From Tubulanus polymorphus (lineage: Eukaryota > Nemertea > Palaeonemertea > Tubulaniformes > Tubulanidae), in assembly GCF_964204645.1 (NCBI RefSeq), contig NC_134033.1:1380131-1444130 (forward strand): a stretch of 64,000 bases of DNA. Reading direction: 5' to 3'. The translations under genes and the position numbers were made by a program. Positions 1,505 through 60,251 of the stretch are shown here, one piece after another. How positions within the stretch are numbered: position 1 is the stretch's first letter; the number at the start of each line of letters is the position of its first letter. The notes beneath the pieces were generated by a model. It had not been told where the DNA came from. It saw only the letters and a list, made by a program, of their open reading frames with translations, and ran no database searches.

Positions 1505-4500
1505 ATGAAGAGATTTTTTAGACGTATCAGAGATTTCGCGACCGGAAGTCCGGATTCGTCGAACGAAGATGCAGAGTTGGTGAGTAAATCGGCGCATTTT
1601 ACACGTATCTATCGTCATCGGGTGTCATAGCTTGACTTCACGCCTCACCCATCCTTATAGGAAATAATTTTGTTACGAAATTGCCAAGATAGTTGCCCAG
1701 CTAGTTGCAATATTTTGATTTCTACCAAAATAAATTCAGATAATAAGCCTTTTTCCAGTTTCCAGGCACCATTTTTGGGGTACCTGCCGGGTCCGCTTGT
1801 TGATGTTTTTGTCCCTATTTTGTCCCCGTTCAATTATTTCTATTTCTTTCATATCTCTGGATTGCATCAGGATAGAAACAATTATTTAATAATACTCCAC
1901 CCGTAGCCTGTTATTCAGACGATAGTTATCTTGTTTCTTATTTGTAATTTTTGTCCGGAAAAAACTTGCCCGGTCCAAACAGTCTACCGGCGCGTGGATC
2001 TCGCGAAAATGATTCTTTTATAGCGATTGAATATTCTAATCTATTTCATTGATTTTTTTTCGCAGACGAACGAACGGAAATGTCAACTAAATCAGATCAG
2101 TGAGTATTTCAAGATTTCTGGAAAAAAGATCAAATTTTCCAAGAAAAATTGTCAGAATTGATATTTAAGTGATAACACTTTGTTTCTAGGTACCGCGATA
2201 CCCGATTATCTGAAAACGCTGTACAAAGAACGCTTTGGGATGCTTAAACCGGAACCGTGGGAGGCCGAACACTCTACCCGTCAATTCGTTCCGTTTACCA
2301 GCCGTCATCCTCGCCTACAAATTGCGTTAACCAAATCGACCGGCGAGGTCTTGGAATTAAGCCTACCATCGGGTGACGTCACGAATGAACTATTCTCCGC
2401 GCGGGCGGATACGCGTGTTCGGTGCGCTTGTATCAAAGGTAATAAGGCGCTGATGATTAAACCGTTAAACCGTTAACGAAATTTGAATTTTGAAATTTAG
2501 ATATTTTCATCTCGTTCTGTAGGAAGTATTGATACTGGTAAAACTACGATGATTCGAAAGATCGCTTTAGATTGGGTCGGAAGTGAACCGTACGTGAACA
2601 AATACAAAACCGTTTACGCAGCGGACCTGGAAGATTTAAACTACAACGGCGACCAATCATTCCTCGAATTACTAGCCGAGATGCTGCCCTCTGGTGGCGA
2701 GGGCGAGAAGCTGACGGCGAAAGAAATCGAATATATTTTGGAGTCAAACTCGAACGACGAGAGTTTATTTCTGTTGGATAACATCGACCTGGTCGACGAC
2801 GAACTGAAACGCGCCGAAATCGTCGACTTCCTCGAAGAACCGCCAGGTGGCGACAAAACCGTCGTCGTGGTGACGTGCAGACGGGATCGGGTGTTGGAAG
2901 ATTTGGAGGTCGAGCACGAGTGGTTCTGTTTGCGAGGAATGACGGTGAATCAGGCTAAGAGGAATCCGTTCCCGTCCTCGCGGCGCCGATCCAGCTCAAC
3001 TCTGAGCGCGATGCTACTCGTCAGTAAAAAGTCATCGTCGAAGAAAAAATGTTTCAAAAAACCACCGACAGGCGGCGTGCAGAAAGTACCCGGATTTCTA
3101 ATCGATAAACAATTCGTGAAACCGTTATATTTGAAAATCTACGACGCTCTGTACATGCGGAAGAATTCTCGTCGCCGTCCGGCAGCCTCTATACCCGCCA
3201 TGTTGAACGATTTCATGTACCACGTGATGGGCGAATTCACCGGAAGTTTCATCGATTCGGTCACCAACTATCACGTGATCGGCGAATTGTGCATCCTGGC
3301 GCAGGAGAGTTTACGCGCCGGAAGCTGGAAACTGGCGGACGAACAGCTGAACGAGAAAAGCGGAATCGTGGCGGCGTTGTTGGAGAAACGACGCGATTGT
3401 GAGCGTCGCTTCTGCAGTAAGTCAATCCATACCTACCTGGCCGGGTTGGGTGTCGTCACCCCGTTCGATAACCGGATCCCCTTCGATCGAGTCTCATTCG
3501 ACCGAATCGATTCCGAACTGGAGAAATTCGGTAAATTATTCCTGGCTTCGATCGTCCATTCGTTGGACGCGACCGGTAACGACGCCTGGCGGACGCTGAT
3601 CGAAACAGTGCTCGATCGAACGGCTCTACCGACCGGATGTACGCACGGTCTCTACTGCGCGTGCGCGGTCGTCACGCGACAGCTGCTGAGTCACTCGGCT
3701 TCGTTCTGGTGCCCGGAAGACGACGAGCACCTGTTGACCCTTGCCAACAGTTGCGTGGTCACGTGTCGCAACTACGACGTGTATTTCCACATGCAGAGAT
3801 TGATGACGAGTTTGGTTCCGGGGGTCGGTTTGAACTGCGAAGCGACACTGGAGCTGATGTCGTCGTTCCTGTCGCCTATAGTGTATCTAAACCGCGACAC
3901 GAGCCCCGTCATACAGGCACTGGTTCCCGTACTGCTGGCCCGTCAAACCTGCCCCATCGAAATCATCTTTCTCTGCCACACGTTCAACATGACTGCCGCC
4001 TATAAGGACCGTATCGAAGACGGTCTCCGTCAAAACCGTTCGGTTCGAGGAATAGTCGCGGTAACCGTGCCCGGGGTGACGCTTCAGTGGACCGGATACC
4101 GCAAGTGCCCGACTGTCACGTGGTTTCTGACCTTGGCATTCACGACAGACGAGGATTTCTACCATTTGAAGGCCGACGATAAAAAACGGTTTCGTCTGCT
4201 CGAGAAACGGAACGACCACTGGCACGTGACCGGTCGTTCGCTCGGTATTGAAGATTTGCGCGATCGCGACGCGGAGGAGCCGTTAGAACGACTGCACCTC
4301 CGTCTACCGGCCGAACGCGGAAGCTCCACTTTGATCGCCATCACGAAGCTTTTAAAACATCCATACCCGCTGACCCACTTATACCTGGACGGAGGCGCCC
4401 CCGACGATCCGGAAGACTACACGAACCATCTCAAAAACGTCATCCCAAATCTTCGAGAATTACGTCTCGGTTCGTTGATACGTTCGAACGGTCACGTGGA

Positions 4501-5065
4501 CTTTGTCCGAGTCGTCCGATTGGCCAATAACCTACGAACCGTCCAGGTGGGCGTGGATATGAATAACACGTCTCGTAATGTCTGTCAATCAATCGGTCAG
4601 TTGGTGAATTTAACCGGATTTCACGCCGGCTTGAACACCTACCACTGGCCGACGACCTTGGGATGTTACCCGGCGCTCGCAGATTTGACTATCTACCTGA
4701 AAAACGACGAACAAACTCAAAACATCCTCGACTTCATGAATCACAGCCGATCACGTGATCTACGCGTGCTCCGACTGGAAACCGGAAGCGGTTACGAACA
4801 GCCGGAAGTGGACGACGTAACCGCCATATTGGATTCGATCGGAAATCACGAGAATCTGATATCGGCGCGATTGTGTTTCTTAGGCGTTGAACTATCGGAG
4901 GCGCAAATCGCGCAGATTGCAGAAATTATCGGCGATCACATCGGTCTCGTACATCTGAGTCTATTCACGAGAAACAGCGCCACCTTGCTAGAGCAGGAAG
5001 AACTAAAAGATGCCCTTCGCCGATCCGTTCGACCGCGCTTCGTCGAAACAAAATTCACTCGATAA
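1505..5065 (+). CDS. NACHT-LRR (NLR-like) receptor
   Basis: Model: exons 1505-1579, 2066-2099, 2190-2438 and 2523-5065, 966 aa, all GT-AG with phases closing. A short N-terminus (about 35 aa, no death-fold domain seen) leads to a YLKTLYKERFGMLKPEPW linker typical of animal NLRs just before NACHT. Walker A GSIDTGKTT (about residues 120-128) is rebuilt across the exon 3/4 junction. Walker B LFLLDNID is at about 201-208 and a sensor-1-like VVVVTCRRD at about 233-241. The C-terminal third (about 670-960) has degenerate leucine-rich repeats such as LTHLYLDGG and LRELRLGSL. By family it should be a cytosolic ATP-binding sensor or scaffold; the ligand cannot be inferred. The start is the first ATG in frame with exon 2. 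An N-terminal effector domain could exist on unseen upstream exons. Confidence 0.85.
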
Positions 5066-25900: not shown

Positions 25901-27304
25901 TCCGAGCGTTTTTCGGCCGTTTCTTTTCGATGTCTTCGCGCGTTCTAGAAAAACGATTAAGTAGCAGGCGAGTTTCCATCAGACTCTTCGAGAAAAGATA
26001 TCTGCCTCCACAAATCTCCTAGGACATCATCAATTTCAACTTGTGATTTGATGCTCTAGACCTTTCCGGAAATGATCGCACAAAAGATCAAGTTATTATT
26101 TGGCAATTTGCTGATGTCACACATAGGGATTTTTTTAAAGTAAAAAAAAAATTTGGCAGAAAGTAAACCAGGTTGATACTAATAACTCCTACAGGGTCCC
26201 TCTGGGGTCAGTTCCACGGTCAAAACTTAAGTCAAAACGTGGACTTAAATCTTAAGACTGGTCTCAAGTTGTTAGATCGACTAAAGAACTAAGTTGGCCT
26301 TCGATTGATTTTAGGTCTAAGCCATGACTATGCAACTGGCCCCGGGGGCTAAGGGCCAAGACTTGGACATGGTCTTAGACCAACTTAATTCTATAGCCAA
26401 TTAACTTAAGACCAGACTAAGCTCATTTCAGTCTCTAAATCTCAATCTAACAACTTAAGACCAGTCTAAGATCAGTTTGCCGGTTCTAAAGCCAATCTAA
26501 CTACTTAAGACCAGTCTAAACTCACTTTAGTTTTATAGTCAATCTAACAACTTAAGACTCCAGTCTAAACTCATTTTGGTTCTATAACCAATCTAACAAC
26601 TTAAGACAGTCTAAACTCATTTTGGTTCTATAACCAATCTAACAACTTAAGACCAGTCTGAGCTCAATTTAGGCCCGTGGGCATAAGCCACGTCCGTGCA
26701 CCCAGCCCCTGGGCTAGGGTTTGGGGGCTGAGGCTTGTTCAAAACTATACGTACCATAGTATCTCGTTTGAGAGCCGGAACTCCTCCGTCGAACACAAAC
26801 ACCGGCTTGATTCGATAATAAAGCAGTTTACAGCATTTATTGAACAGTCCGATCAGATGAGCGTTTGGTAACGGGTTGCCTTGTTTATCTCGCATTCCTT
26901 TAGCCGCCTGATGCAGCCAAATACTGACATGTTTTCCGCCGTTAAGGACGGAAATAATTAAAGCTTTGCTCAATCATCGCGATTAACCGAACTGGATTAT
27001 GTGCTAGAAAGATCAAAGGGTTTGTCATTTCGAGGGCTGCAGTTGCTCAAAAGATGTTAAAAGATTTCTAATTAGCAAACAATGAAATATTTTGAACGTG
27101 CCAAACTATCAATCAGCACCTTATACCGGTGTACGGAAAAGGGCTGCCCTCAGAATGCCCAGTTTTAACATTACCCTTAAATTGAATGCGGTGTAAATTG
27201 ACGATGAAAAGGATATCGATTGCTAGAATTTTTCCTTCCAATGACTCCAGAGTCACCGGGCGCCCGATGCTCTCCAAAAGCTGCCATAGACCGAGGACTC
27301 CCAT
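19911..27304 (-). CDS. ERCC5: DNA repair endonuclease XPG
   Basis: 13 coding exons: 27304-27217, 26930-26755, 25944-25703, 25374-25296, 25155-25012, 24610-23671, 23484-23285, 22962-22843, 22432-22219, 21675-21531, 21429-21341, 20868-20681, 20546-19911; 1,086 aa (human about 1,186). It makes the 3' incision in nucleotide excision repair in the nucleus. The XPG-N domain starts [11 protein letters not shown]; metal ligands are D30 and D77 (VFVFDGG). An acidic, low-complexity spacer follows (about 245-620), with conserved [12 protein letters not shown]. The XPG-I domain has MEAEAQ (E679, E681) and [10 protein letters not shown] (D700, D702); the helix-hairpin region is [16 protein letters not shown] box QRTITSYF (877-884) for PCNA and a basic [11 protein letters not shown] stretch follow. 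Intron 1 is AT-AC (separate entry); the others are GT-AG. It is divergent from the PPM1L gene. Confidence 0.95.
20895..21325. repeat. About 109-bp tandem repeat, 4 copies, in ERCC5 intron 11
   Basis: The unit contains GTGTGGACGATCAGTTTTTG and GTAGTTCATTTTCAATT. An inverted, diverged single copy lies at about 35425-35500 in an ICE1 intron, so the unit is also dispersed. Confidence 0.85.
21971..22132. mobile_element. Long inverted-repeat element in ERCC5 intron 9
   Basis: Arms of about 65 bp (ACAGTTAGGTCTGTAAAACA and its inverse TGTTTTACAGACCTAACTGT, extended by TTTCTTGACA/TGTCAAGAAA-type pairing) surround a short loop near 22040. Arms are about 90% matched, which suggests a decaying foldback MITE. 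Confidence 0.65.
22490..22790. repeat. Dispersed 'TTCCCTGACTTGATCTG' repeat
   Basis: Two tandem copies of a repeat of about 150 bp built on CCCTGACTTGATCT, AATCCAATCAATTAACACAG and a 'cgcgatc' word. Further copies occur at about 48090-48330 (inverted) and 52900-53440. It lies in ERCC5 intron 8. Confidence 0.7.
25410..25640. repeat. Tandem copies of 'GATGATGTCATAGGGGGA' repeat in ERCC5 intron 3
   Basis: Two nearly identical units of about 100 bp (TGATGATGTCATAGGGGGAT plus a 'gcaatagacaagatcatcaagg' tail) and a partial third. They belong to the window-wide family. Confidence 0.75.
26200..26680. repeat. MITE plus inverted 47-bp unit array in ERCC5 intron 2
   Basis: The left part holds the single element body (GACTGGTCTCAAGTTGTTAG, then TATGCAACTGGCCCC). 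It is followed by about six inverted copies of the 47-bp unit (AACAACTTAAGACCAGTCTA). Element end and array in one place support derivation of the array from the element. Confidence 0.7.
26931..27216 (-). other. U12-type AT-AC intron, ERCC5 intron 1
   Basis: The donor ATATCCTTTT (27216 down) follows ...GCAATCG. The branch site TCCTTAAC is at 26948-26941, and the intron ends AC at 26932-26931, about 11 nt past the branch A. Splicing gives AIDVSIWLHQ in frame, the conserved XPG sequence; no GT donor in reach does. The boundary falls after coding base 88. Confidence 0.9.
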
Positions 27305-32744: not shown

Positions 32745-33195
32745 CATCCGTCGTATTCCGATCCACTATCTGAAATGTCTTAAGAATACACTAGGGCTGA
32801 AGAAAACCAGAACACCAATTGTCTATGGTGAAACTTATGATAGATATCCGGTAGAAATTATGATGAAAGAAATGGTAGATTATTGGTGCATGGTCTCCTA
32901 ATGATCTAAAATGCCAGTAAAATAGAAATAGTGCCAAGTTACTCGGACGGTCAAGTAATTTTCATTAACCAGACCCCGGTTAACCGGGTAGCCCCTGGAT
33001 GAACACTACAAGCCGTGCCGCTCGGCAGGGAGCCGGCCGAATTCCTGAAGTTTATTACTGCTAAGTTTCGTTTAACTATATATACGTTGCCTGAAGAAAT
33101 AGATCGCTATACGCATGAAGATTTTGATAAATCTTGCAATAATGGTGCATTCCATGAGCTAGCTCGAATGCATGAATTCACTACGGAAAAATAAT
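32745..33195 (+). pseudogene. Non-LTR retrotransposon (LINE) 3' ORF2 relic
   Basis: The frame from about 32745 reads YLKCLKNTLGLKKTRTP, VYGETYDRYPVEI, then YW, the pattern seen after the reverse transcriptase in many animal LINE ORF2 proteins ('LG..K.T....YGE.GR.P......YW'). The frame then breaks repeatedly, and fragments such as ECMNSLRKN near 33170 may be its tail. It is dead and truncated at both ends. Confidence 0.5.
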
Positions 33196-33609
33196 TAATA
33201 GTACCGTTTGTGTCCGATTCGACGAGTGTCATTTCGTCCGCTCCACGCATCCGCAGCCGCACTTTCTACCCCTGGCAAGCGAGCACATTTTATCGGTCAA
33301 ATCGCACTAATATGTAAAAACATAGAAAACGTTTTAAAAATATAGAAGGACAGAACTTAGACTTTTTGCGAAATAACGCGTTAAATTATGTTTTAAAAAA
33401 AGGTATTTATATTGATGACAGAATCAAATAAAACAGAAATATTGAAAATACATAGACCGATTGATCCAACATGGCGGCGCCCATGAGTGTTTAAAATGAA
33501 ATTCACAAATTTTGCGTTTCCCACGTTTCAAAACTGATTTCCTACGAATTTGAGCTGGAATTCTGATCGCTTTTGGTATCAAACTATTGTTTACGACTTA
33601 ATAGTGAAG

Positions 33610-33648
33610 ATGGACGTTAGATATACGAGTTTTTCGGTTCGGCAGTGA
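33610..33648 (+). promoter_or_regulatory. uORF overlapping the ICE1 start (TGATG)
   Basis: A 12-codon ORF (ATG 33610) ends in TGA at 33646-33648, sharing its last A with the ICE1 ATG at 33648-33650. If the leader includes it, ICE1 translation would need leaky scanning or termination-reinitiation. Confidence 0.4.
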
Positions 33649-36600
33649 TGGAATTTGACGTTGTCGAAGAAGCAGGAGCCGGAAGAGGCGGCGATCACCA
33701 ACCCGAATCTCTAATGACACCCGGCGGCAGTGCTGATGACATAATGGATTTAAATTTCACCCCGTTCGATTTGGACGCCGAGTTTGATGTTATGAATTCC
33801 GTTGACGCGCCACAGCCGCCGCCGCCAGTAGCGAACTGTCAGTCTTGCATCCAGTTAAGAAATGTGAGTCAAATAGTATCCAAGTGTAGAATTTTTCAGT
33901 CCTCCTGTCGAATGCAACTTACGACCTTTCACAGGAAATAGGCCTAGGAAACTAAGCCTATCATTGTCTAAATTGCATTGACTGAATATTCAATCAGCTT
34001 GGATAAAACAGCGCCTTCAGTTAACAAATTCACTGAATTCATCCGTTTCAGGAAATGAGTAAAATGCTTCAAGATCATGAACTGAACTTCAAAACTTTAA
34101 AACAGAAAATCATCTCCACTGAGTGAGTATTTCATCCGTACTGTGACCTTCAAAAATCCCTAATTTTGCTTAAAATTCGTAAATTTTTTACACTATTTCA
34201 GTTTGTTGATAAAAAAGTATAACACAAAATCACAAGATATCCTTTTACATTAGAAATAGAATGAATGTGAGGATCCAGTTCCACAGTTCAGTGGAACTGA
34301 GTTGTGAACGGGTTCCACAGTTGTGTGAGTCAGAGTTAACTGTGAACTCAGGATCCAGTTCCACATTTCTCTCTTAAGATCCAGGTTCACAGTTGTGTGA
34401 GTCAGAGTTAACTGTGAACTCAGGATCCAGTTCCACAGTTGTGAGAATGAGTTAACTGTGAACTCAGGATCCAGTTCCCCAGTTGTGAGAATGAGTTAAC
34501 TGTGAACTCAGGATCCAGCAGTTCCACAGTTGTGACCTAGAGTTAACTGTGAACTCAGGATCCAGCAGTTCCACAGTTGCGAGTCAAATCTTAACTCGCA
34601 GTGGACGGAACTGGGTCCTTTAGTTTGATCACTGATCCTAAGTTATTCAAAATTTGTGCATTCTTCGGAAGAATCTCAGCTTTTCACCTTGACTTTGGCC
34701 ACATTATAACAACCAGACCAAACAACTGGAAGAAGTTACGAAAAAACTGGACAAAGTTAATTAGTAAGTTTTGTTGAGGAGTTAATGATGAAAATTTAAG
34801 ATAAAATGCGGAAAATAATTGAAGTTAAGAAATTTGATTTTGTTCGTTCGTTATTGTAGCGATAGTAGTATTTTGGAACGGCAGTTGAAGTCGACTCTGT
34901 CGGAAGTCGAACCGCTTCGTCAGAAACTGAAAGAATGGGATCTCGACCGCGAGAAATATTTCATCTCCGTTCAACAGTTGGAAGATAAAGTCAGCGCGGC
35001 TGAAGTGAGTTCGAAAAAAAACCTATTTTATCCATCATTGCCATTAGCAATCTGCTGCCTGGACCCAGCACACCCTTCGGGCTGGACCCTGTCATTCTGA
35101 CCCTGCACTTACCCAGCCTGGACCCTGCAACCCGATAGCCTAGACCCTGCACCCTCGTCAGCCTGGACCCTGCACCCTCATCAGCCTGGACCCTGCACCC
35201 TCGTCAGCCTGGACCCTGCACCCTCGTCAGCCTGGACCCTGTCATTCTGACCCTGCAACCCAATAGCCTAGACCCTGCAACCCGTCAGCCTGGACCCTGT
35301 AACCCGATAGCCTAGATCCTGCAACCTGTCAGCTTGGACCCTGTAACCCGATAGCCTAGATCCTGCAACCTGTCAGCCTGGACCCTGCAATCCGTCAGCC
35401 TGGACTCAGTTAATTTTCAAAAGCTAATCGTCCACACTTCACATGTGTTCAGATCTTCACTTTTTTAATTGAAAATGAACTACCAACATTAGACACTTAA
35501 TCATGCTCGCCTCCCACTTAATGGGACAGTTCCAGGCGACGTATTGCATCAGATTCGGTTAAATTCTCTGGTTTTGTTTTGTTGTTAGTTGTTTAATTTC
35601 GATGAATGTTTTCAGAGCGTTTCTCGTCAATACGAAACGGTCGGTTTAGAAGCGGAGGCCGTGCGCGAGAAAAACGAACGAAAAATCCGCGACCTCAGTC
35701 GCGACGCGAAGAGTCTCGAGGAGAAGTAAGTTTCATCGGGATAATCAACTGTCAAACTCGTCGTAGCTGTGACCATCATTGTCTCAAAGACTTATCCAAA
35801 TAACGACTTACACTTAGTAAATTGAATTAGAAATACTGAGACTCAAAAATAGAGAGGACTTCAGTAATGTGACGAGGACTTATTCAAATGATGACTTACA
35901 CTTAGTAAATTGAATCAGAATTAAAAATTGAGACTAAAAAATGGAGATGACTTCAGTAATGTGACGACTTATTCAAATCATGACTTACACTAAGTAAATT
36001 GAATTAGAATTAAAAATTGAGACTCAAAAATAGAGATGATTTCAGTGGTGCACAATGACTTATCTGATGCCAAAATTAAGCGAGTTTAATTGTTTTTTGC
36101 TGCTGATATTATAATTTTTGTCCGGTTAAACTCTTTTTTCATTGAATTTCGATTCCTTCCAGATGCAAACGGTTGGAAACCGCCGAAAAGAAATTGAAAG
36201 GTAAGAAGACACTTTTTAAGCGAAAATACGATACTTTTTTTTTATTTCGAATTATTCGTACAAATTTCATCGGTTTTCGAAAAATTACCACAAAATCTTA
36301 TTAACATCGTTTAGAACATTACACACCGAATCTGACAAAAAAAGTTTCCCCCAATGATGTCATAGGTGGAAATTTGATTACGAAAAAACGTTTGAACGGA
36401 CATTTGATTTTAACATCGTAAACATGGAACTAGATCATTGAAAATCGGACCAAATATTGGTCATTTTATTCAGCAAAAAAATTATGCGGAAGCAAAATAT
36501 TAGTTACAACAAATAAATCCCAGCGATCTACAGTAGACTCCACGCTTGTGGGACCCGATAGATACCGATCTACAGTAGACTCCACGCTTGTGGGACCCGA

Positions 36601-39600
36601 TAGATACCGATCTACAGTAGACTCCACGCTTGTGGGACCCGATAGATACCGATCTACAGTAGACTCCACGCTTGTGGGACCCGATAGATACCGATCTACA
36701 GTAGACTCCACGCTTGTGGGACCCGATAGATACCGATCTACAGTAGACTCCACGCTTGTGGGACCCGATAGATACCGATCTACAGTAGACTCCACGCTTG
36801 TGGGACCCGATAGATACCGATCTACAGTAGACTCCACGCTTGTGGGACCCGATAGATACCGATCTACAGTAGACTCCACACTTGTGGGACCCGATAGATA
36901 CTGATATTCTTCGCGAGCATGTGAAAATTGTTCAAGACGTTTTTGTCACAAGCCACTATTGTTGAAAAGGTAACTCTCAAAGCCTAAATAGAGTTTTGCT
37001 ATTTAATTTCTTTCGAGAATCTCAGAGACCTCAGTGGTCTCAAAACAAGCGAGGCTCCGATCGAGCATGAACTCATCTTAACTTGTAGCTGCAGTTGCTG
37101 AAAAGTAGGTTAAAGATAACCGACAGATAGAAACCTAAGTAACAATGAACTGTTACTTGTCACTATGTCAACTATCCACTGATTAACTGTAATCAACTTT
37201 TCAGCAGCTGCAGCCCGTGGCCTAACCGATAACTGTGTAATTAGGTCCTGGCTAAAAACCCTGAAACTCTGCGCGTAACGTTTGATGTTTTTATGCTATT
37301 GTTGCGTGACGACGATGTCGACGGCCGGAGTTTTCTCGTATTGTTGGTTTTTGCGTCGTTGACGACGGTCGTCGAGGCGACGCCGGCAGACGGATTGAAT
37401 CGAACACGCGATGAAAACGACGAGTAAAACTCCGTTGACACCGACGATGATGAGTCCTTCTCGTCGGTAATCGGGCATCGCGAACACCCGCAGGTACGAC
37501 GTCGAGTTGCCGACGGATACCGCTGTCGTCGCGACTACGCTGCACGTGTACGCTGCGGTATCCGATAACGACGCGTTAACGATTCGCAGCGTTCCGTTGG
37601 AATCGTCGACGAATCGCGCCGATTCGTTCGCGTCGGAAATTCGGGTTCCGTTTTCGAAGTACCAAGCGAGCGTCGTCGAGTTCGTCGTAGGTGGCGCTGC
37701 GCATTTGAATTCGGCGGTTTCGCCGATCTCGGTTGCGAGGTTTTTCGGCGCGATCGATGTGCACAGTTTTTCGCCGTGTTGACAAACGGACGACGGTTCG
37801 CCGCTTGACCGAGCGCCGGCGAATAACGCAACTATGATCACAGCTACCACGGTGACCATTCGTTTTATTCCTTCTCCTGTCATCAGACGTGACTCCATCG
37901 TTTTATCAATTTCAACGACGAATTTAAAATCTTCGAAACAGCAGCCTATAGTCTCAGCTCACATTCTCTGAAAAATCGGAAAAAATTAAGTGAAAAAGAA
38001 AACGGGATTCGAACCTACCTACGACACGTCAGACAGATTTGACAGAAATTGTCCCAGAATCTAAATCTCTTAATTCTGCAGACGCGATTTTTTAGTCAAA
38101 TTGTTCAATTTTCGATTTAAGAGTGAAATCAAACCGACTGCTAGTGAAACCGAGCGCCAGATTTCAAGTATTTCTTACCTTTATTTCGCTGTCAGCTGTT
38201 TCTTATCATCACGGCGGCCATTTTGATCGTGTCATATGACTTTTGTTGTGAGTTTTGCACACTAGGTGGAAGCACCTCCTGGTCTGGTAGTAATGTCGGC
38301 TAATTATCCCTTTAATTGTATAATTAGCACTTCTTGAGTGTCCAATTCCCAAATAAGATTTCAGACATAAAACGTATTTTTGCCAAGATATCCAAACTGA
38401 TAGAACGATGACCACACTCAAACGTGGTGAACGGATAATAAGATAAAATCCCACTATTTACAGATTAAAAGAATTTAAAAACCAGAATTTATTTATTAAA
38501 TCTAAAATATTTAAAAGACACGACTCACCTGACGATGATCTCTAGGGTGAGATCGATACGTCGTGTCTTTTAAATATTTTAGATTTAATAAATAAATTCT
38601 GGTTTTTAAATTCTTTTAATCTGTAAATAGTGGGATTTTATCTTAAAATCCCAACTGAATTTTAGCCATCTCGAAATCCCTGATGACAATTCCTGACTTA
38701 ATTTCGGAATTTAAAATAAATCTTCAAAATCTCATCATTATTGAAAACGGGAATTCATGGAATTCATACGTTGAACAAATTTGATAAGATTTTTTTAGTA
38801 ATTTATTCGACCCAAGATAACTGAAATCTGAATCTGAAAATTTGATATTAAATCCCCAACACTCAAAATGATATTGAGTTCGGCTAAAATGTTTCATGAA
38901 CTAGAACTTTATTAGTAGTTAATTCAACGTTTTGACTACACATCCTAAAAGTCATCTTCAGGAAAACCGCAACAGCAAAACAGAAATAGACAAATTAGTT
39001 GTTAATAAGATGTGATATAAACTTAAGAGATGACGAACAACATAAATAAAGAAAACAGTTAAAGAGCTAAAATACTTAGAATTTTTTTTTCTTAATTTTA
39101 TTTTTTCTCAACAAATGTTTCATTTTGTTTCTCAATGGTTTCACAATAATTTCCATCTTAAATTAGAAAAACATTTTTTTTTCAACTCAATTGTTTCATT
39201 TGGTGATTGCTTCAGTGATTCTGATTCCTTCAGTGATTCTGATTCCTTCAGTGATTCTGATTCCTTCAGTGATTCTGATTTCACAGGAAATGAGAATAGA
39301 ACTCAATGAAAATTTTGAAAAAAAATAATGCGGTATTTTGATATAATTGTTGCAGCGCTTTACGAAGAATCAAAGTCGAACGCGTCGAGCGAGAAGAAAA
39401 AATCGAAACAACTCGGAAAACTACTGGAAAAAGCAAACGTAAATATCAGATTTCAAATTAGTCAAATGTATTCAGGACCCAGTTCCACAGTTGTGAGTTA
39501 GAGTTAACTCTGAGTTTAAGTTAGTTCATTTTCAATTAGTTAACTCAGGGTCAAATTTTAACTCAGAACTGTGGAACTGGACCCAGAATAATAGAAAAAA

Positions 39601-42600
39601 TGTTAAAATCTTGAGAAAAAAATTCTAGGAAAAATCGATGTTTGACCGAAGAATTTTGTTTTTATCTACCAAAATTGTGATTAGCAATGGCTTATTTGTT
39701 TTTGTACCTTTTGATGAGAACATGATTTTGATTATTTTTTTTCCAGGAACGCATCCGGCAATATGAAGAAACAATGCACCAAAACGGTAAGAAAAACTCT
39801 TACATCTAAAACAAGTTTTTCTTTGTTTTAGAGCCCATAATATGTTTAATTAAATTCAAACTTCCAACAGGCAAATCAGGGTCCGGTTTCATCGGAAAGT
39901 CATAAGTTAAAAACGCTTTGAAATGTTGAATGAATGAATAAATGTCAAAATTCATATAGCGCCAATTTCATGCAATAGATGTTCAAAGACGGTCCCTAGA
40001 AATGATTATTTCAGCTGAAAATGAGTTTGGCTTCATTCAAAACATGAAGTAACTAAAAATACTTCATATTATATAAAAAATTTGAGTTTAGATTTTTTTT
40101 AGACTGGACCCCCAAATATTGAGCAATTTCAATTCTAAATTAGAAAATTTTTCTGCATGCAAATTTTGGATAGAAAATGGAATCAAATTTTGCGTCAAAA
40201 GATGATTTTTTGTTTTCAATGACAATTTAAGGAATTACAGTCCGTAAGAGAAGGCAAAGGAGGTCACTGCAAAAGGGCAATATCGATAGTGCAGGGAAGG
40301 AGATCGATGGCGATGAGAATGAAAGCGATGATAACGAGGATGAAATCGTCGCAAAGAATGATGAAAGTTTGATGACGGTCAAACAAAAAATCACCAATTC
40401 CGTAAGTCGACGTTAATGATAGTTTCTCAACCCCTTTAAATCCGTTTTAATGAATCTCACTAAAAAAATTGAATATTTAATTTTTTCTTTTTTTTCGGAA
40501 TTTCTCAGATGATGGGCGTGTCGTCCCCGGGGCGTAGAAACACGGGCCGATTCCGTCAGACGTCGCCCGTGAAACAGCCCTCGCCGAGACCGGCGCGTCG
40601 GGTTCCTCGGCAATCCTCACCGCGTGCTGCGCGTAGGGCACCACCGACTCAGGAGCCCTCGGTTCCGTCAAATCATCCGCGACAATCGATATCGAATTCT
40701 CCTAAAACCGTTCCGTCTGCTCGTCGCGATAATCAAAAATCCTCGAAAATTGCCCGAAATCAGAAACGATCAGTCGCGACCTCAGCGGAACGAGAATCGG
40801 GAATTTCAATCGGCGAAAATAATCCTCACGAGGATGAAACACTTTTATTCGACGAGGAGCAGCTCGAAGGTAAAATCATTTCAGATTCCGTAACTCATCA
40901 AAATTCAAGATTTAAAAACGGTTGAAAATTCATTTAAAGTTCGAATTATTTACATAGTTATTCAATGCATCGCTAATAGACTTTTTCTAATTTTGAAATA
41001 ACTGATTTCTCAGAAAATGATGCTCTTCTCAATCAACTACTCGGTAATGACCATGACGACGTCACCAATGACATTGCGCCACCTAGTACGCAAGCCAGTA
41101 CTAACGATACGTCCGCTCTCACCGATGATGTAGCGCCATTAAGTCCTCGAGTCGGAACTTACGATGCGTCTGCTCTCACCGACACCGAATCAGAATTTGA
41201 TCCGACCGATGTATTCTCGTGTCGATGGTTCAAAGGTTTACAAGATTTAACGGACGTTCTGTCACCGTTGCCGCCCTCACCTGCCATGGTAGGTTTCATC
41301 CGGGTGTGTTGAGGGTCAGGGTTTAAGGGTCAGGATCTAAGGGTCTAGCCAAATATTTAGGATGAATTAATCATAAATTGGCATTCAGGCAGTAGTGCCC
41401 CCCTTTTAACAGGAAAATTCCTTTCCCATGGTTTGGGTTCCTACTGCAGTCACAGAAACATTTCCGATCTCCGGATTAAAGAACAATGATTGAAGATTAA
41501 ATGATTAAGGGAATTACTACCGTAATTCTCTAATCCTAATCGTAAATCTTTTTTATGTTTCAGGAATTAGAAGAATTCGATTCTTCTCATCAGGAATCGG
41601 CGGAAACTACCGATTCAACGACGTACACTCTACCGAAAAGAATCGACTCGCTCGGATTCCTGCCGATTTGCGAAAATTCTCGCGACAATCACGTAACCAT
41701 TGGCGATGACAACGATTGTTACGATAAACGCGAAAGGACTGTCGTAACTAAGCAATCAGATGACGTATGCCGAGGGTCGGCGTTCACTTTATATCATCGG
41801 CAGTCGACGTTAGGTTTCGACGTTGAAGCGGTTAAACGGGACGTCGCCGCCGGCATCGACCAATCAGATCTCCGCGAAGAGGATGAAAATTCGAATTTCA
41901 GCCGGGAAGAATGTCGCAATACTAATAACAATAAAAACACGGACGCGAAGTCCGCGTTTAAGAAGTCGTTCGGGTTTGATTTCGCGGGCGATAAAGCTCC
42001 GTCTGGTGGTGATCGCGAGAATCGACCGAGTAAGTTCGGTCGTAACGAGGGGTTCGAGGATTTCGCGAGCGATAACGCGCTGCCTTTTTCATCGGCGGCG
42101 CCATCCGGTGGTGATCGCACGAGTCAATCGACTAGTCCGTCTGCTGGTAATGACGAACACGCCGGTGCTGCCACCTCGCGGCGATCGGCCGAAGTAACGA
42201 TGTCCGGAAACAGCGCCGAGAACTCATGGAATTCCGAGGTGGAAAAATCGAACATCGCGAAATTGGACACCGATGGAAACAACGAAACCGTTAAAACTTT
42301 AGCGGAATCGATAAATTTCGCCATAAATTCAAATGTTTTCAAGACTAGTTCTGATAAGACTTCTACTTCATCTGATAAGTTTTGTAACAATGACAATAAC
42401 GTGATAAGCTCTCATGGAAATAATCACGAAAATAGTTTTGTGAATTTTTGCGATGAAATTAAGAGTGCAAACAATGAAAATGATGATGATATCAACCGTG
42501 AAAAGGAGGAAATGGGTGGCCGGTTGAATGAGGATGAGTGTAACAGTGTTTTAGAGGATGTAAAGGATGATGAAATTGTTGAAAAGGAGAAACTTGATTG

Positions 42601-45600
42601 CGATAACGAATTAATCGACGATAATGAAAATGATGAAGATGAAAAGAATGATCTCGTCAGTGATGATTCGATTGTAAATGATGACGATGAAAAGGATGAT
42701 CGTATGGGCGATGAAGAGGAAGGAGAACAGTCCGTTTGTGATAAAACTATAACGAATGAAGATTGCGATGTTGACAATTTAGGAACTGTTCAGCGTTCAA
42801 CTCCAGGTGGACGTTCAACTCCAAGGGGACGTTCAATTCCGGATGAACTCTCAACTCCAGGTGAACGTTTCACTAGTGAACTTTCAACTTCCAGTGAATG
42901 TTTCATTCCGCGCGAATATTCGGTTTCTGGTGAACGCTTTATGTCTGGTGAGCGCTCGGCTTCTGTTGAACGTTCAAATCCGGTAAGCGAATGCCTATCT
43001 TCTCGTGAACGCTCAGCTTCCGTAGAGCGCTCGACGAACGACCAACCTTCAAACCCAATCGTATCTCGTCGAAATTCAATTCCGAATCGCACAGCGGGAA
43101 TTCTGACGTTTCGTAGCAGTCCGGTTTACGTGCCGTCGACAGTTTCTACCGTGCTGCCACCTATCATCCGCGCGAGTCAAAGCGCGATAACGATCGTATC
43201 GCCCGAAACGAGCGGTCTACCGGCGGCGATTGTTACGAGCGACGAGTCGAATTCGAGTATTCCGTCGGGTATATTCCCGTCGTCGTCGTCGAACCGGTCT
43301 CCGCCGTTGTCCCCGACGACGAGAATGACGCCGTTGTCGCCGTTGCCAATATCACCGTTTCTGATAAGCGGTCGAATAACTCCGATCTCTCCACTACCTC
43401 CATCTCCGCAGACGATCCGAGAGGAATTGTTGTCACCGTTACCCGGGTCACCGCCGTTAGATAATTCCGATTCTACTCTCACCAGCGGTTCCTCTTCCTC
43501 GTCGTCGTGCTACAGTCCAAATTCTTCCATGACTCGATTCTCTGCGACGTCGTCCATTTTCATTTCACCTTTGAGCGGCGGCAACAATGCGTCGGGTTCC
43601 GTGGTGACGCCGGCGCCTTCGATCATATCTCCGCTACCGATTACGCCGTCTGCGGCGGTAGGTGGCAGCACCGGTTCGTCCTCGTCGCTGCGCCGGCAGA
43701 CGGATGATAGCGAAAACAACGTCGTGAGCAGACGGAATTTGGAGGTGAAATTTGTAGAAGAGAAAAGGGAATCAGAGACGGAATCATCGAGGGATTCATC
43801 AGATCGGATTCTTGTAAATAATCGAGTAATCAAGGAAAGAAGTGAAGACGAGAATTATCGAGAAAATATAGAAAACTTGAGACAGGAAGAACCACAGTTT
43901 GACTCCCAGCCTAAAGAACCACAGTTTGACTCCCAGCTTGAAGAACCACAGTTTGACTCCCAGCTTGAAGAACCACAGTTTGACTCCCAGCTTGAAGAAC
44001 CACAGTTTGACTCCCAGCTTGAAGAACCACAGTTTGACTCCCAGCTTGAAGAACCACAGTTTGACTCCCAGCTTGAAGAACCACAGTTTGAGCAAACCGA
44101 TATCCATAACAGGAATTTAAATTCTGCGCCTCCTGAAGATGAAATAGAATTGGTTGAATGTCCTGCAGGTGATGAGGGTCAGACAACCTCCTGCTCGACG
44201 AAGTCATTGTTAGCAGACGGATCGAAGGTTGATGATTTAGAGACCAAACCTGCACCGACTCCGCAAATAGAAGCACAAAATTCCAAAGCTCGAAGAGTTA
44301 AAAAGCCAAACTCTGAAACTGTGGAAGTCTTGGCGCAAAACTCTCGAACTGATGAGGTACAAAAGCCACAAACTCCACAGGCCACAGGGCATAACTCACA
44401 AACTCCACTGGCTCAAAACTCTGAAACTCTGGAAGTCTTGGTGCAAAACTCCAGAAATGAGGCCACACGAGGCTCACAAACTCCACCGGTCAAGGCACAA
44501 AACTCGCAAAAGTCTTCACAGGTCCAAAACTCTGAAACACTGAAAGGGCCAAACTTGAACCGATCGAAAAAACCATCCGACGAAAAATCGGCAGTGAACG
44601 TGAGCGACGTCGGGCTGAAGAGAAACTTATCGAAACAAAAAGTCGTCGCTCCGAAAATTAGGCGAAAATCTAGCGAAAATTCGGCGGTAAAAACGAATCC
44701 CAAAACGACCGCTGAAACGGCGGAGAAAATCAATTCAGAAACCGCAATGATTTCGGATGAATCGAATCACGGCGATTCCATCCAACAATCAAAACCGTTA
44801 GAGTCATCGAGGGACGTCGGCGGTATGGGCAGACGTAAACGAATCGCTCGTCATCCACCGCCGAATATACCTCTGTTTCAACTCGGAGCCGCGTCGTCGA
44901 GAATAACCCGGCAGCAGATGCCGCAGCAGACGTCGAGAATCAATCGCTCCGAATCACCGGTCACCGCGAAAACCGTTCCTCCGCATCAACAATGCGTAGT
45001 TCCTACGAAAGTCAATCAGTCGGAGTCACCGGTTGTCGCGGAAACTATCGAGACAAAAGAGGCTGTTACCGTACAACGTTTCGATTCGGCGAAAGCGGCT
45101 GAGGACGACCATGTCAAGGTCGTCGATTGTTGCCCGTCTGGCGGCGTCAACAACAATGCGACTAAACGTAAAAAGAAAAAACAGAAGAAAAGACGCCAAA
45201 AAGAAGAAATGACGCCACATGAAAATCAAGGTATGAATTGAAATAGATCTTAAAACTGGTCTCAAGTTGTTAGATTGGTTATAGAACCAAAATGAGCTTA
45301 GACTGATCTCAAGTTGTTAGATTGGTTATAGAACCAAAATGAGCTTAGACTGGTCTTAAGTTGTTAGATTGGTTATAGAACCAAAATGAGCTTAGACTGG
45401 TCTCAAGTTGTTAGATTGGTTATAGAACCAAAATGAGCTTAGACTGGTCTCAAGTTGTTAGATTGGTTATAGAACCAAAATGAGCTTAGACTGGTCTTAA
45501 GTTGTTAGATTGGTTATAGAACCAAAATGAGCTTAGACTGGTCTCAAGTTGTTAGATTGGTTATAGAACCAAAATGAGCTTAGACTGATCTCAAGTTGTT

Positions 45601-48600
45601 AGATTGGTTATAGAACCAAAATGAGCTTAGACTGGTCTTAAGTTGTTAGATTGGTTATAGAACCAAAATGAGCTTAGACTGGTCTCAAGTTGTTAGATTG
45701 GTTATAGAACCAAAATGAGCTTAGACTGGTTTCAAGTTGTTAGATTGGTTATAGAACCAAAATGAGCTTAGACTGGTCTCAAGTTGTTAGATTGGTTATA
45801 GAACAAAAATGAACATAAGACGGGTCTTAAATCTAAACTATGACCCCTAAATTAAATGTATTTGCTGTTTGTAGGGATTTCAGCTGCAGATGAATCTATG
45901 GAACCACCGGCTAAACGAATCTGTAGCCCGGAACCTGCACCAGCAGCACCGGCGCCATTGGTAGGTGAACTCAAGAATCATCCTGACATAAGGAAGCAGA
46001 CGGAGCTACAACCAAATCACCAAACCTCGGTGATTGTTAAAACAATGGCGGCGCCAGAGACAATCACAGTGAATCCAGGAAAACAGAGCAGAGGTTTGAA
46101 AAATGCAGCCTTTGGTTGCATACAGCAACAGCAACAGCAGCAGCATCAGCAACAAACTGGTGTTAATGCAGCCCCTAGTCAAGTGCAGCAGCAACTTCAG
46201 CAGCAGCAACAACAACAGACAGGTGTCAATGCAGCCCCTAGTCATGTACAGCAGCAGCAGCAACAGCAACAGCAGAGAGCTGTAAAGACTTTAGCTCAAT
46301 TAGTCCCACTACCAAAGAGGAAAAACAAACGTGATAAAACAATATTGGAATGTAAGTTTTACTTGTTTCTGAACTCAGTTCCACTGTTCTTAATTCAGTT
46401 CCACAGTTGAACTGTTGAATTGGATCCCGATGTTTCAGACTATTTTGCAAAAGGTTTTTTCTTCAAAATCTATTAATTTTGTTCACAGATTTACAAACGG
46501 AAATCATGAAATTCGTTAAAACCCCAAACGTCACCGGGGGCAGCAGCAGCGTTGAGACGATTGTCGAAAAGTTGAAAAATTCCGACCCGTTCAGAACGGA
46601 ACTTTTAGTTGAAGCGATCATCAAGGTAAACTGTTGAATCCCACTCACTCTCCCATTTTGAATTTGTTGAAATTTTACTAATTAGAAATTTTTGTTCATT
46701 CCTACGTACGTGAATTGATTTGTATTTATTTCAGGTATTGTTGATGTTGCCTAGCGATCTGTTGGCGTTGTTGTACGGTTGTGAGATGTTGTTGAAACCG
46801 TGTTTGTCGCAGGCTGAACGCAAGATGGCCGATTTCTGTCGACAGTTTTATCCGCTGATGGTAAGAGTTTGTTCGTAGAGATAGTGGGAGAGGGGAAGGA
46901 GACAAAGGGATGAGAGAGGGAGAGGGGAGTGAAGAGAGGGAGAGGGGAGTGAAGAGAGAGAGGGGAGAGGGGAGTGAAGAGAGGGGGAGAGGGGAGTGAA
47001 GAGAGATATAGTGGGAGAGGGGAAGGAGACAGAGGGATGAGGGAGGGAGAGGGGAGTGAAGAGAGGGAGAGGGGAGTGAAGATAGAGATAGTGGGAGAGG
47101 GGAAGGAGACAGAGGGGTGTAAGAGGGAGGAGGGGGAGTGAAGTGAAAGGGGAGAAGATAGAGGGGAAAAGAGACAGAGAGAGAAAGGAAAGAAAGAGAA
47201 GAAAATGAAAAAGAGCAGAGAGAGGAGAGAGTAAGAGGAAGAGTACCTGCCGATTGGGAGAGTTCATTCATAGAGCTAGTGGGTGAGACAGAGATGGGGA
47301 TGGAGAGAGAGGGAGAGGAGTAAGAGAGAAAGAGGGGGAGAGAGGAGATGGAGAGGGAAGGGGTAGAGGATTAAGTGAGAAAGAGGGGGAGATGGCGAGT
47401 TCTGGTCGCAGATTAACTCAATTTTCGTTATTTTTTCATTTCTAGGCGTCGTTGAAAGAACAGTTACTAAAATCATTGAGCAAAAGAATTCTATTCGACA
47501 AAACAATTCCTGAAGTTCCGCGAATGGGTCTCTGGTAAGTGAAGTATTACCTTCAGGTTGCTCAGAGATTCCGTGATTTTTTGAAATTTGAATTTTTGAT
47601 TTTTTTCAGTCGTTTTTTCGGCGGCTTATGCCACGACGACGGCAGCGATTTAGAAATCGCGCGGGTTCTGATTTTCGATCTGATCTATCACGACGTCACG
47701 CATTACCCGCAGTTCATACTGAGCGTGATCAGCGGCTGTCCGAGGGTTCTACGCAAAACATTCATCAAACTAAATCCAGGTACGAGATGAACGAACAACT
47801 GTGACGGTCGAACTAGGTAGTCAGGGGGGGTCGAACTAGGTAGTCAGGGGGGGTCGAACTAGGTAGTCAGGGGGGTCGCTTACCTGGAAATCACGGAATT
47901 TTGTTTAAAAAAAAGCAAAATATTCAGGGAATTTTGTGAAAATGCTAAATATCAGGGAAAAGTCAGGGAAATTGTTAGATCATGCCACTGCAGGGACTTG
48001 ACACAAAAGGATTTTGACCCCAGTATCCTAGGTACCGGTACTATATAGGATACTGGGGTCAAAATCCTTTTGGATCATGCGTAAAATCAAAGAGTTTCTG
48101 TCTTTGTCTTATGTATTTGACTGTGTTAATTAATTGGATTCTTAGCAGATCAAGTCTGGGAAAACAACGAGCATGTCAGAGAATAGTCAGGGGTAATTTG
48201 ATTAGATAGATCGCGCGTAAAACCAAACAGTTTCCGTCTATGACTTACACATATTTTGACTGTGTTAATTGATTGGATTCATAGTACAAGATCAAGTCAG
48301 GGAAAACAATGTGCATGTCAGGGAATAGTCAGGAGGAAAGAAAGCTAGTCAAATAAAGATGGCCTACCGATTGGTGTTGATATTCGAACCCTGTGCATTC
48401 TGATCTAAGATCTTCAATCTTTAATTGATTATTTTACAGATACGGTCTCGTTGGTGACGCTGATGGAATGGATGATACCGAAAAAATGCGACTTGTTACC
48501 GCAACAATACGACCGCCATAGCAACGTAAGTTACCGCGCGAATTGCTACGAACTCAAATATATCTCAGTAGAAAATATTGCAAAGATTCTTTTGAGTTCT

Positions 48601-50464
48601 AGACATTTGCCCCCCCCTTCGACAATTTTTTCATATACATTAAGCATTACAGTACGCAATTGCACTGACCACTCCCCCTTCCCCTAATGCGTACGTAATA
48701 AATGAATGATCCCATATACTTTTAAACATTGAATTGTTTGAATTCAGGTGAAGAAAGCGTTTATGGATTTGTGTCGATGGAAAGAATCGAAGCAGACGCC
48801 GGAAACATTCATACAAATAATCGTCTGCCAAATCATCAACTCTACTCAACCTCAACAACAGCCAAACGGTAATTACTTCTACAGTGGACTCACTTCCTCA
48901 GTTCTACACCCTGTTTCACAGTTACTGGACTCGGTTCAACAGTTACTGGACTCAGTTCCACAGTTACTGAACCCAGTTCCACAGTTACTGAACCCAGTTC
49001 CACAGTTCTGTGCCAAGTTCCACAGCTCTGTGCCCAGTTCCATAGTTCTGGACTCAGTTCCACAGTTCTGGACTCAGTTCAACAGTTGCTGAACCCAGTT
49101 CAACAGTTACTGAACCCAGTTCCACAGTTCTGTGCCCAGTTCCACAGTTCTGGACCCAGTTCCACAGTTCTGGACTCAGTTCCACCGTTCTGGACTCAGT
49201 TCCACAGTTCTGTACCCAGTTCCACAGTTCTAGACTCACTTCCACAGTTCAGGACTCAGTTCAATAGCTAGTGGACCTTGTTTCAAAGTTCTGTATCTGA
49301 TTCCCAGACGTTGCTGAAGCTTTTATTTGTATTTTTCAGAGGTTGAATTGTACCAGAATTTACGCTGTATTGAACTATTGTGCTCGTATCAAGGCTGGGA
49401 ATGGACGAACTCGTATTATATTCGGAATATCGTTTGGCCGAAACTACAAGCGTGGAGTGTTTCACCGATAAACAACCGAACAATGTCCGACCGTGCCATT
49501 GCTTCACTGCTACAATCTTTAGGTAATCTTTCCCCCTCTCTCTCTCTCCAATCTTTATCACCCATCTCTTCCCCCTCTCCCTACCCTCCCAATCTCTCTC
49601 ACTCCCTCACTCCTCTCTAGCTCCCCATCTCTTCCCTCTCTCACTCCCCATCTCACTCCCCCTCACCTCTCTTTCCCCTCTCCCTACCCTCCCAATCCCT
49701 TCCTCACTCCTCTCTTCAGCTCCCCATCTCTTCCCCCTCTCACTCCCTTACTCCCCTCTCACTCCCCCTCTCCTGTTCCCTTCCTCCCTCTCTTCCCCTC
49801 TCACTCCCTCCTCTCTTCATTTCTTCCATTTCTTTTGGCTCCCCATCTCTTCCTCCTTGTTCCTCTCATCTCTCAGCATCTCCTAAAATATGAATCAGAT
49901 GTTTTTGTTATTTTGCTATAACAAATTCTGTTCTCATGTTTCAGGACCGGTATGTTTGAAATGTCCGACGAAAAACAAGATGGCCGTCGTTGAGACGATG
50001 AGCGTGCTGAAGATACTCTTACAGTCGATGGGCGGCTCGGAAACTAGTGAGTATAAATATCATCCCTGAAACCATCAAGCTTCACTTGAATCCGATTGGG
50101 GGAGAGGCCTGGAGAAACATATCGAGCCCTGAATCGATGAGAGACCAGTGAAAGACTGGCGGGTTGATCAGTATCCTCGCCCCTGAAGGGTTTGTACTTA
50201 CACCGTTTACTGGTATTTCTATTTGTAGTTCCGGTTGCTGTCCAGGAGGGGGCGCTGTCAGCGTTATTGATGTTAAGCGCGTACGATCCTCAGTTAGTCG
50301 GTATGGTAACCGTTGCCTGGGTCGATCAACACCGTGCAGAAATATCGGAAACATTGCGTCGAAATATCTATCAATTCGTGATCGCGTTTTTACCGGTGGC
50401 GCCCTATCTGTCGAGTCTGTTAAATATTATAGAACCATCGGAACCCAGTTCCACATTTGCGTGA
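33648..50464 (+). CDS. ICE1: Little elongation complex subunit 1 (ICE1-like)
   Basis: 23 coding exons: 33648-33863, 34052-34122, 34202-34236, 34703-34763, 34860-35004, 35616-35725, 36163-36200, 39356-39438, 39747-39786, 40241-40401, 40509-40869, 41014-41288, 41564-45230, 45875-46351, 46489-46625, 46735-46860, 47446-47534, 47610-47779, 48440-48525, 48748-48868, 49340-49522, 49945-50046, 50229-50464; 2,329 aa (human about 2,266). The N-terminus (CQSCIQLRNEMSKM, LKQKIISTD) and its coiled coil (about 73-330) match ICE1, scaffold of the complex that drives Pol II snRNA transcription. Next come a short FKGLQDLTDVLSPLPPSP motif, a long acidic Ser-rich region, a 9-aa EEPQFDSQL repeat, poly-Q and a helical C-terminal domain. 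Intron 3 is AT-AC. The last residues and stop lie in a CAGTTCCACA repeat word. Exon structure is solid; the name rests mainly on the N-terminus. Confidence 0.8.
34237..34702 (+). other. U12-type AT-AC intron, ICE1 intron 3
   Basis: The donor ATATCCTTTT follows ...CACAAG. A branch-like CACCTTGAC is at 34685-34693 and the intron ends AC at 34701-34702, 10 nt past the branch A. Joining gives a continuous coiled-coil frame (KYNTKSQDYNNQTKQLEE). The GT-AG alternatives, ending at AG 34715-34716 or skipping exon 3, give the wrong phase. Confidence 0.85.
34262..34625. repeat. CAGTTCCACAGTTGTGA minisatellite inside the ICE1 AT-AC intron
   Basis: Six or seven units of about 45-50 bp with GTTAACTGTGAACTCAGGAT and CCAGTTCCACAGTTGTGA, derived from one arm plus the inner part of the foldback element. 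Confidence 0.85.
35085..35410. repeat. About 24-bp minisatellite (CAGCCTGGACCCTGCAACCC)
   Basis: About 13 imperfect copies in ICE1 intron 5, followed by an inverted copy of the ERCC5 intron-11 repeat at about 35425-35500. Confidence 0.85.
36525..36902. repeat. 42-bp satellite-like array, 9 near-identical copies
   Basis: The unit GATCTACAGTAGACTCCACG plus CTTGTGGGACCCGATAGATA repeats exactly every 42 bp with one or two substitutions in total. Such homogeneity indicates recent expansion. It lies in ICE1 intron 7. Confidence 0.95.
37296..37898 (-). CDS. Single-Ig-domain membrane protein nested in ICE1 intron 7
   Basis: One uninterrupted frame of 200 aa, antisense to ICE1. A signal-type segment (MVTVVAVIIVALFAGA; the ATG at codon 14 may be the real start) is followed by one Ig domain. 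It has FKCAAPP for the first Cys, LAWYFENG for the core Trp, and LSDTAAYTC with the DxAxYxC signature. Six N-glycosylation sites (NST, NGT, NES, NGT, NAS, NST) follow the extracellular prediction. A membrane span (GLIIVGVNGVLLVVFIACSI) leads to a short basic tail with YEKTP and a VVTQQ end. The coding exon has no intron; 5' leader exons cannot be excluded. It is probably a cell-surface adhesion or recognition protein. The family is unrecognised. Confidence 0.7.
   Translation of the reverse strand: MESRLMTGEGIKRMVTVVAVIIVALFAGARSSGEPSSVCQHGEKLCTSIAPKNLATEIGETAEFKCAAPPTTNSTTLAWYFENGTRISDANESARFVDDSNGTLRIVNASLSDTAAYTCSVVATTAVSVGNSTSYLRVFAMPDYRREGLIIVGVNGVLLVVFIACSIQSVCRRRLDDRRQRRKNQQYEKTPAVDIVVTQQ
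38441..38643. mobile_element. 84-bp perfect inverted repeat element
   Basis: The left arm (38441-38524, starting AGATAAAATCCCACTATTTA) and right arm (38560-38643) are exact reverse complements, separated by 35 nt. Both arms are AT-rich and end in GACACGAC/GTCGTGTC at the loop. No ORF. It lies in ICE1 intron 7. Confidence 0.85.
39474..39592. repeat. Complete CAGTTCCACAGTT foldback copy
   Basis: Arms GGACCCAGTTCCACAGTTGT and its inverse (ACTGTGGAACTGGACCC) flank an inner segment with GTTAACTC words, about 118 bp in all, in ICE1 intron 8. This is one of the best single copies of the family. Confidence 0.75.
45251..45815. repeat. 47-bp minisatellite, about 12 copies, in ICE1 intron 13
   Basis: Near-identical copies of GATTGGTTATAGAACCAAAA plus TGAGCTTAGACTGGTCTCAA, more homogeneous than the arrays at 17.3 and 26.2 kb. 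Confidence 0.95.
46865..47395. repeat. Purine (GA)-rich minisatellite in ICE1 intron 16
   Basis: Repeats of GAGAGGGAGAGGGGAGTGAA and relatives, almost pure G/A on the plus strand. A candidate for triplex DNA by composition. Confidence 0.9.
47820..48340. repeat. ICE1 intron 18: short tandem, palindrome and dispersed repeat
   Basis: Three copies of GTCGAACTAGGTAGTCAGGG (47808-47875), a 25-bp perfect palindrome pair (48005-48029 with 48047-48071, AAAAGGATTTTGACCCCAGT), and inverted copies of the CCCTGACTTGATCT repeat (48090-48330). Confidence 0.8.
48885..49275. repeat. CAGTTCCACAGTTCTGGACT half-site array in ICE1 intron 20
   Basis: About 17 units of about 20-23 bp, one arm of the foldback family in tandem. 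Similar arrays lie at 58020-58235 and 59525-59960. Confidence 0.9.
49525..49880. repeat. Pyrimidine-rich tract in ICE1 intron 21
   Basis: Degenerate repeats of CTCTCACTCCCCATCTCTTC, almost pure C/T. Confidence 0.85.

Positions 50465-51954: not shown

Positions 51955-60251
<8,297 letters not shown>

Follow-up and report, generated by a model that had tools for sequence, protein, structure and literature searches.

Gene content of the locus

The window analysed here is a stretch of 64,000 nucleotides from Tubulanus polymorphus (contig NC_134033.1, positions 1,380,131 to 1,444,130 of the forward strand); all coordinates below refer to it. The main gene is a plus-strand coding region (33648..50464), predicted by splice-site reading, with 23 coding exons and a product of 2,332 aa. 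The model extends from an ATG at 33648 to a stop codon ending at 50464 (6,999 nt including the stop), and a script check of the frame found no internal stop. The gene had been called ICE1-like in a sequence-only reading of the same DNA, and its identity as ICE1 was upheld by a Pfam search in which residues 268-407 of a 438-aa C-terminal query matched ICE1_C (PF25817; Little elongation complex subunit 1, C-terminal domain), scoring 54.5 bits where the cut-off is 27. All matches of the C-terminal part in the 268-Mb assembly were at one locus, indicating a single copy. For the N-terminal part, Pfam gave only sub-threshold matches of the generic coiled-coil type; comparison with an approximate human ICE1 query gave 50.1 bits (maximum of 200 shuffles, 37.7), and is used as a lead only. 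Searches against solved structures with both protein ends returned nothing useful.

Intron 7 of ICE1 holds a 42-nt tandem repeat (36524-36905; 9.1 copies, 99% matches) and, at 38443-38648, a long near-perfect inverted repeat noted by eye. Nested antisense in the same intron is a single-exon frame on the minus strand (37296-37895), whose product has an immunoglobulin domain and probably a membrane segment. Elsewhere in the window, a long open frame on the plus strand (2501-5065) is NLR-like, its NACHT match being sub-threshold.

Splice signals of ICE1 intron 3

Coding intron 3 of ICE1 (34237..34702, plus strand, 466 nt, phase 1) begins with AT and ends with AC, and its removal keeps the reading frame; the remaining 21 introns of the model are GT-AG, so that the AT-AC intron is one of 22. 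It is flanked by coding exon 3 (34202..34236, 35 nt), which encodes (D)LLIKKYNTKSQ(D), and by coding exon 4 (34703..34763, 61 nt), both on the plus strand. Exon 3 had been described as a 35-nt micro-exon; its boundaries and length held, and the term itself is loose, the exon being short and not extreme.

The 5' splice site ATATCCTTTT (34237..34246, plus strand) matches the U12-type consensus RTATCCTTT at 9/9 positions, compared with 7/9 for the best of the other 21 ICE1 donors. The U12-type branch site TTCACCTTGACT (34683..34694, plus strand), with the core CACCTTGAC at 34685-34693, resembles TTCCTTRAC. Its branch A, at 34692, stands 10 nt from the end of the intron; a spacing of about 10-13 nt is expected. 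Scored with an approximate matrix, the site reached 12.6 of 16.7 bits, a good but imperfect value with its mismatches in TTCACC versus TTTTCC. The AC 3' splice site is at 34701..34702 (plus strand).

The intron has donor, branch, spacing, phase 1 and its standing as a lone minor intron among major ones in common with U12-type AT-AC introns generally (PMC10639083). Minor introns are biased away from phase 0, and the phase 1 of ICE1 intron 3 fits that bias (PMC10639083). No substantial difference from the class was found; a local tandem repeat occupies the body of the ICE1 intron. This repeat has a 44-nt unit, takes up much of the intron (34378..34583, plus strand) and belongs to a family spread over the window. 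With up to 3 mismatches allowed, words like GGATCCAGTTCCACAGTT were counted at 73 places where 0.03 would be expected, both dispersed and in tandem and in many introns (for example 34271-34484, 48948-49229, 58024-58224 and 59545-59910).

Chance expectation and the XPG/ERCC5 intron

The window has two occurrences of the donor pattern RTATCCTTTT where 0.52 would be expected, and two or more were also seen in 8 of 100 shuffles; by itself the donor 10-mer is weak evidence. CCTTRAC followed by AC at the right distance was found at about the frequency expected by chance, and this stricter pattern fitted the XPG/ERCC5 intron only. The combination of donor, branch and acceptor is convincing: in a simulation that asked for a 9-nt U12 donor inside 55 nt and also for branch and acceptor inside 60 nt, the joint chance was about 1.5e-5, and the frame requirement adds a further factor of about 3 beyond that figure.

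Besides the ICE1 site, the window has one further full U12 donor, at 27216 on the minus strand, in XPG/ERCC5, where it opens an AT-AC U12-type intron (26931-27216, minus strand, 286 nt, phase 1). Used as a positive control, AT-AC splicing of this gene restored the XPG_N domain over the junction with 103.4 bits. This is presumably the first U12-type intron of the sequence-only reading. Human XPG/ERCC5 also carries AT-AC introns; a literature search for an AT-AC intron in XPG found no paper. The AT-AC introns of XPG and ICE1 are 7 kb apart. Taking some 300 minor introns per genome, their density is roughly one per Mb, and on this rough estimate we regard the closeness of the two as coincidence.

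Minor spliceosome components and pairing

Matches above the Rfam cut-offs were obtained in the genome for U11 (one), U12 (one), U4atac (one) and U6atac (three, the third being weak and possibly a pseudogene). The U11-59K protein PDCD7 is also encoded (228.9 bits). Nucleotides 16-27 of U12 pair with the branch site at 10 of 12 positions with the A bulged, and no equally good U12-pairing site was present in 33001-36000 among positions with an A in the branch place. Of nine positions in the donor at 34237, 8 pair with the U6atac of this genome; with U11 the donor pairs only partially, at 6 of 7 positions, one of them a G-U. A score combining U11 and U6atac pairing did not single out the donor: 6 of 3000 positions scored as well, and two of these six are its neighbours at 1-2 nt.

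These signals suggest that U11 and U6atac would recognise ATATCCTTTT and that U12 would pair with CACCTTGAC, leaving A34692 bulged. Exon 3 (ending at 34236) would then be joined to exon 4 (beginning at 34703) in phase 1, within the putative N-terminal coiled coil. The proposal of a U12-type AT-AC intron at 34237-34702 is thus sustained by the donor, the branch, the AC end, the frame and the minor snRNAs in the genome.

Competing splice junctions

All pairs of GT, GC or AT donors in 34203-34289 with AG or AC acceptors in 34560-34754 were enumerated, with the frame required to stay open into exon 5. Every one of the 29 frame-keeping junctions uses an AT donor, and the U12 consensus is present only for those starting at 34237; no GT-AG or GC-AG junction among the pairs enumerated in these intervals keeps the frame. 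The GT at 34217 and the AG at 34716 were further scored with a matrix built from the 21 other introns of ICE1. The donor scored below those of 20 of the 21 introns and the acceptor below all 21, and use of the pair shifts the frame and introduces stops in exon 5. The earlier remark that GT-AG rules mis-split the exon at this place is supported.

An ordinary U2-type intron from GT 34217 to AG 34716, beside which the U12 motifs would be accidental, has the required dinucleotides in its favour; given the frame shift, the stops and the weakness of both sites, this explanation is close to negligible. The same GT-AG pair encloses the AT-AC pair, lying 20 nt and 14 nt outside it, and the two could be used in a twintron-like overlap, the U12 pair yielding productive and the weak outer pair unproductive mRNA. 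Twintrons are known in animals (PMC3564746), but the outer sites are weak and a nearby GT and AG are expected by chance, which makes such an arrangement very improbable. We consider, with a probability of about 0.95, that 34237-34702 is a bona fide U12-type AT-AC intron of ICE1, most likely inherited, shared with mammals and lost in flies.

Relation to known minor-intron genes

Mouse Ice1 was named earlier among minor-intron genes (PMC8034651), and a minor intron in ICE1 is not in itself new. As far as that text goes, gene and intron class match those described here; it states neither where the mouse intron lies nor its terminal dinucleotides or phase. Ice1 is absent from the 19 minor-intron genes listed for Drosophila (PMC2952598), and minor introns are widely conserved among animals (PMC10639083). 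The kind of intron and the gene are already known, and the case is an ordinary one. ICE1 (little elongation complex subunit 1) would most likely have inherited its minor intron in common with the mammalian gene, the intron having gone in flies; its ancestral position is inferred, like the use of the 34236/34703 junction.

Predicted consequences and the feedback proposal

Translation of the model with intron 3 retained gives a stop about 112 codons in. Exons 3 and 4 together measure 96 nt, and a transcript without both is predicted to stay in frame and encode a protein shorter by 32 residues; an in-frame sum is a one-in-three coincidence and is only noted here. Under inhibition of the minor spliceosome, flanking exons are commonly skipped (PMC8034651).

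The sequence-only reading had also stated that ICE1 promotes snRNA transcription, which agrees with the fall in snRNA levels on ICE1 knockdown (PMC3937775), and had speculated about feedback. In such a loop, low minor-spliceosome activity would reduce ICE1 and with it Pol II transcription of snRNA genes, including those of U11, U12 and U4atac. The knockdown result and the early stop on retention are in its favour, as is the finding in flies that raised U12 snRNA levels are restored once the LEC/SEC subunit Ell is knocked down (PMC6199344). The loop would, however, be self-reinforcing and not homeostatic, and nonspecific because the Pol II snRNA genes served by LEC include those of either spliceosome. 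The fly list lacks Ice1, and the U11-knockout mouse showed no evident effect on NMD, which is also linked to ICE1, despite Ice1 being a minor-intron gene (PMC8034651). We hold the feedback to be unlikely, and it would matter only if supported by experiments.

A homeostatic loop has been documented for the minor spliceosome and runs through the U11-48K and U11/U12-65K mRNAs (PMC5473595). Both cases tie minor-spliceosome activity to a gene affecting minor snRNP supply; in the documented loop, U11 bound to a conserved splicing enhancer leads to unproductive isoforms, whereas ICE1 has an intron that needs ordinary removal only. It is more doubtful still that the ICE1 minor intron has been selected as a coupler of minor-spliceosome capacity to snRNA transcription, with an ICE1 skipped for exons 3 and 4, and so lacking 32 coiled-coil residues, behaving differently.

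The bona fide U12-type intron makes ICE1 a minor-intron gene in an animal beyond the species named in the cited papers. Its exact junctions are useful for automatic annotation, which is prone to overlook AT-AC introns. If the position is common with vertebrates, the minor intron of ICE1 would be ancient.
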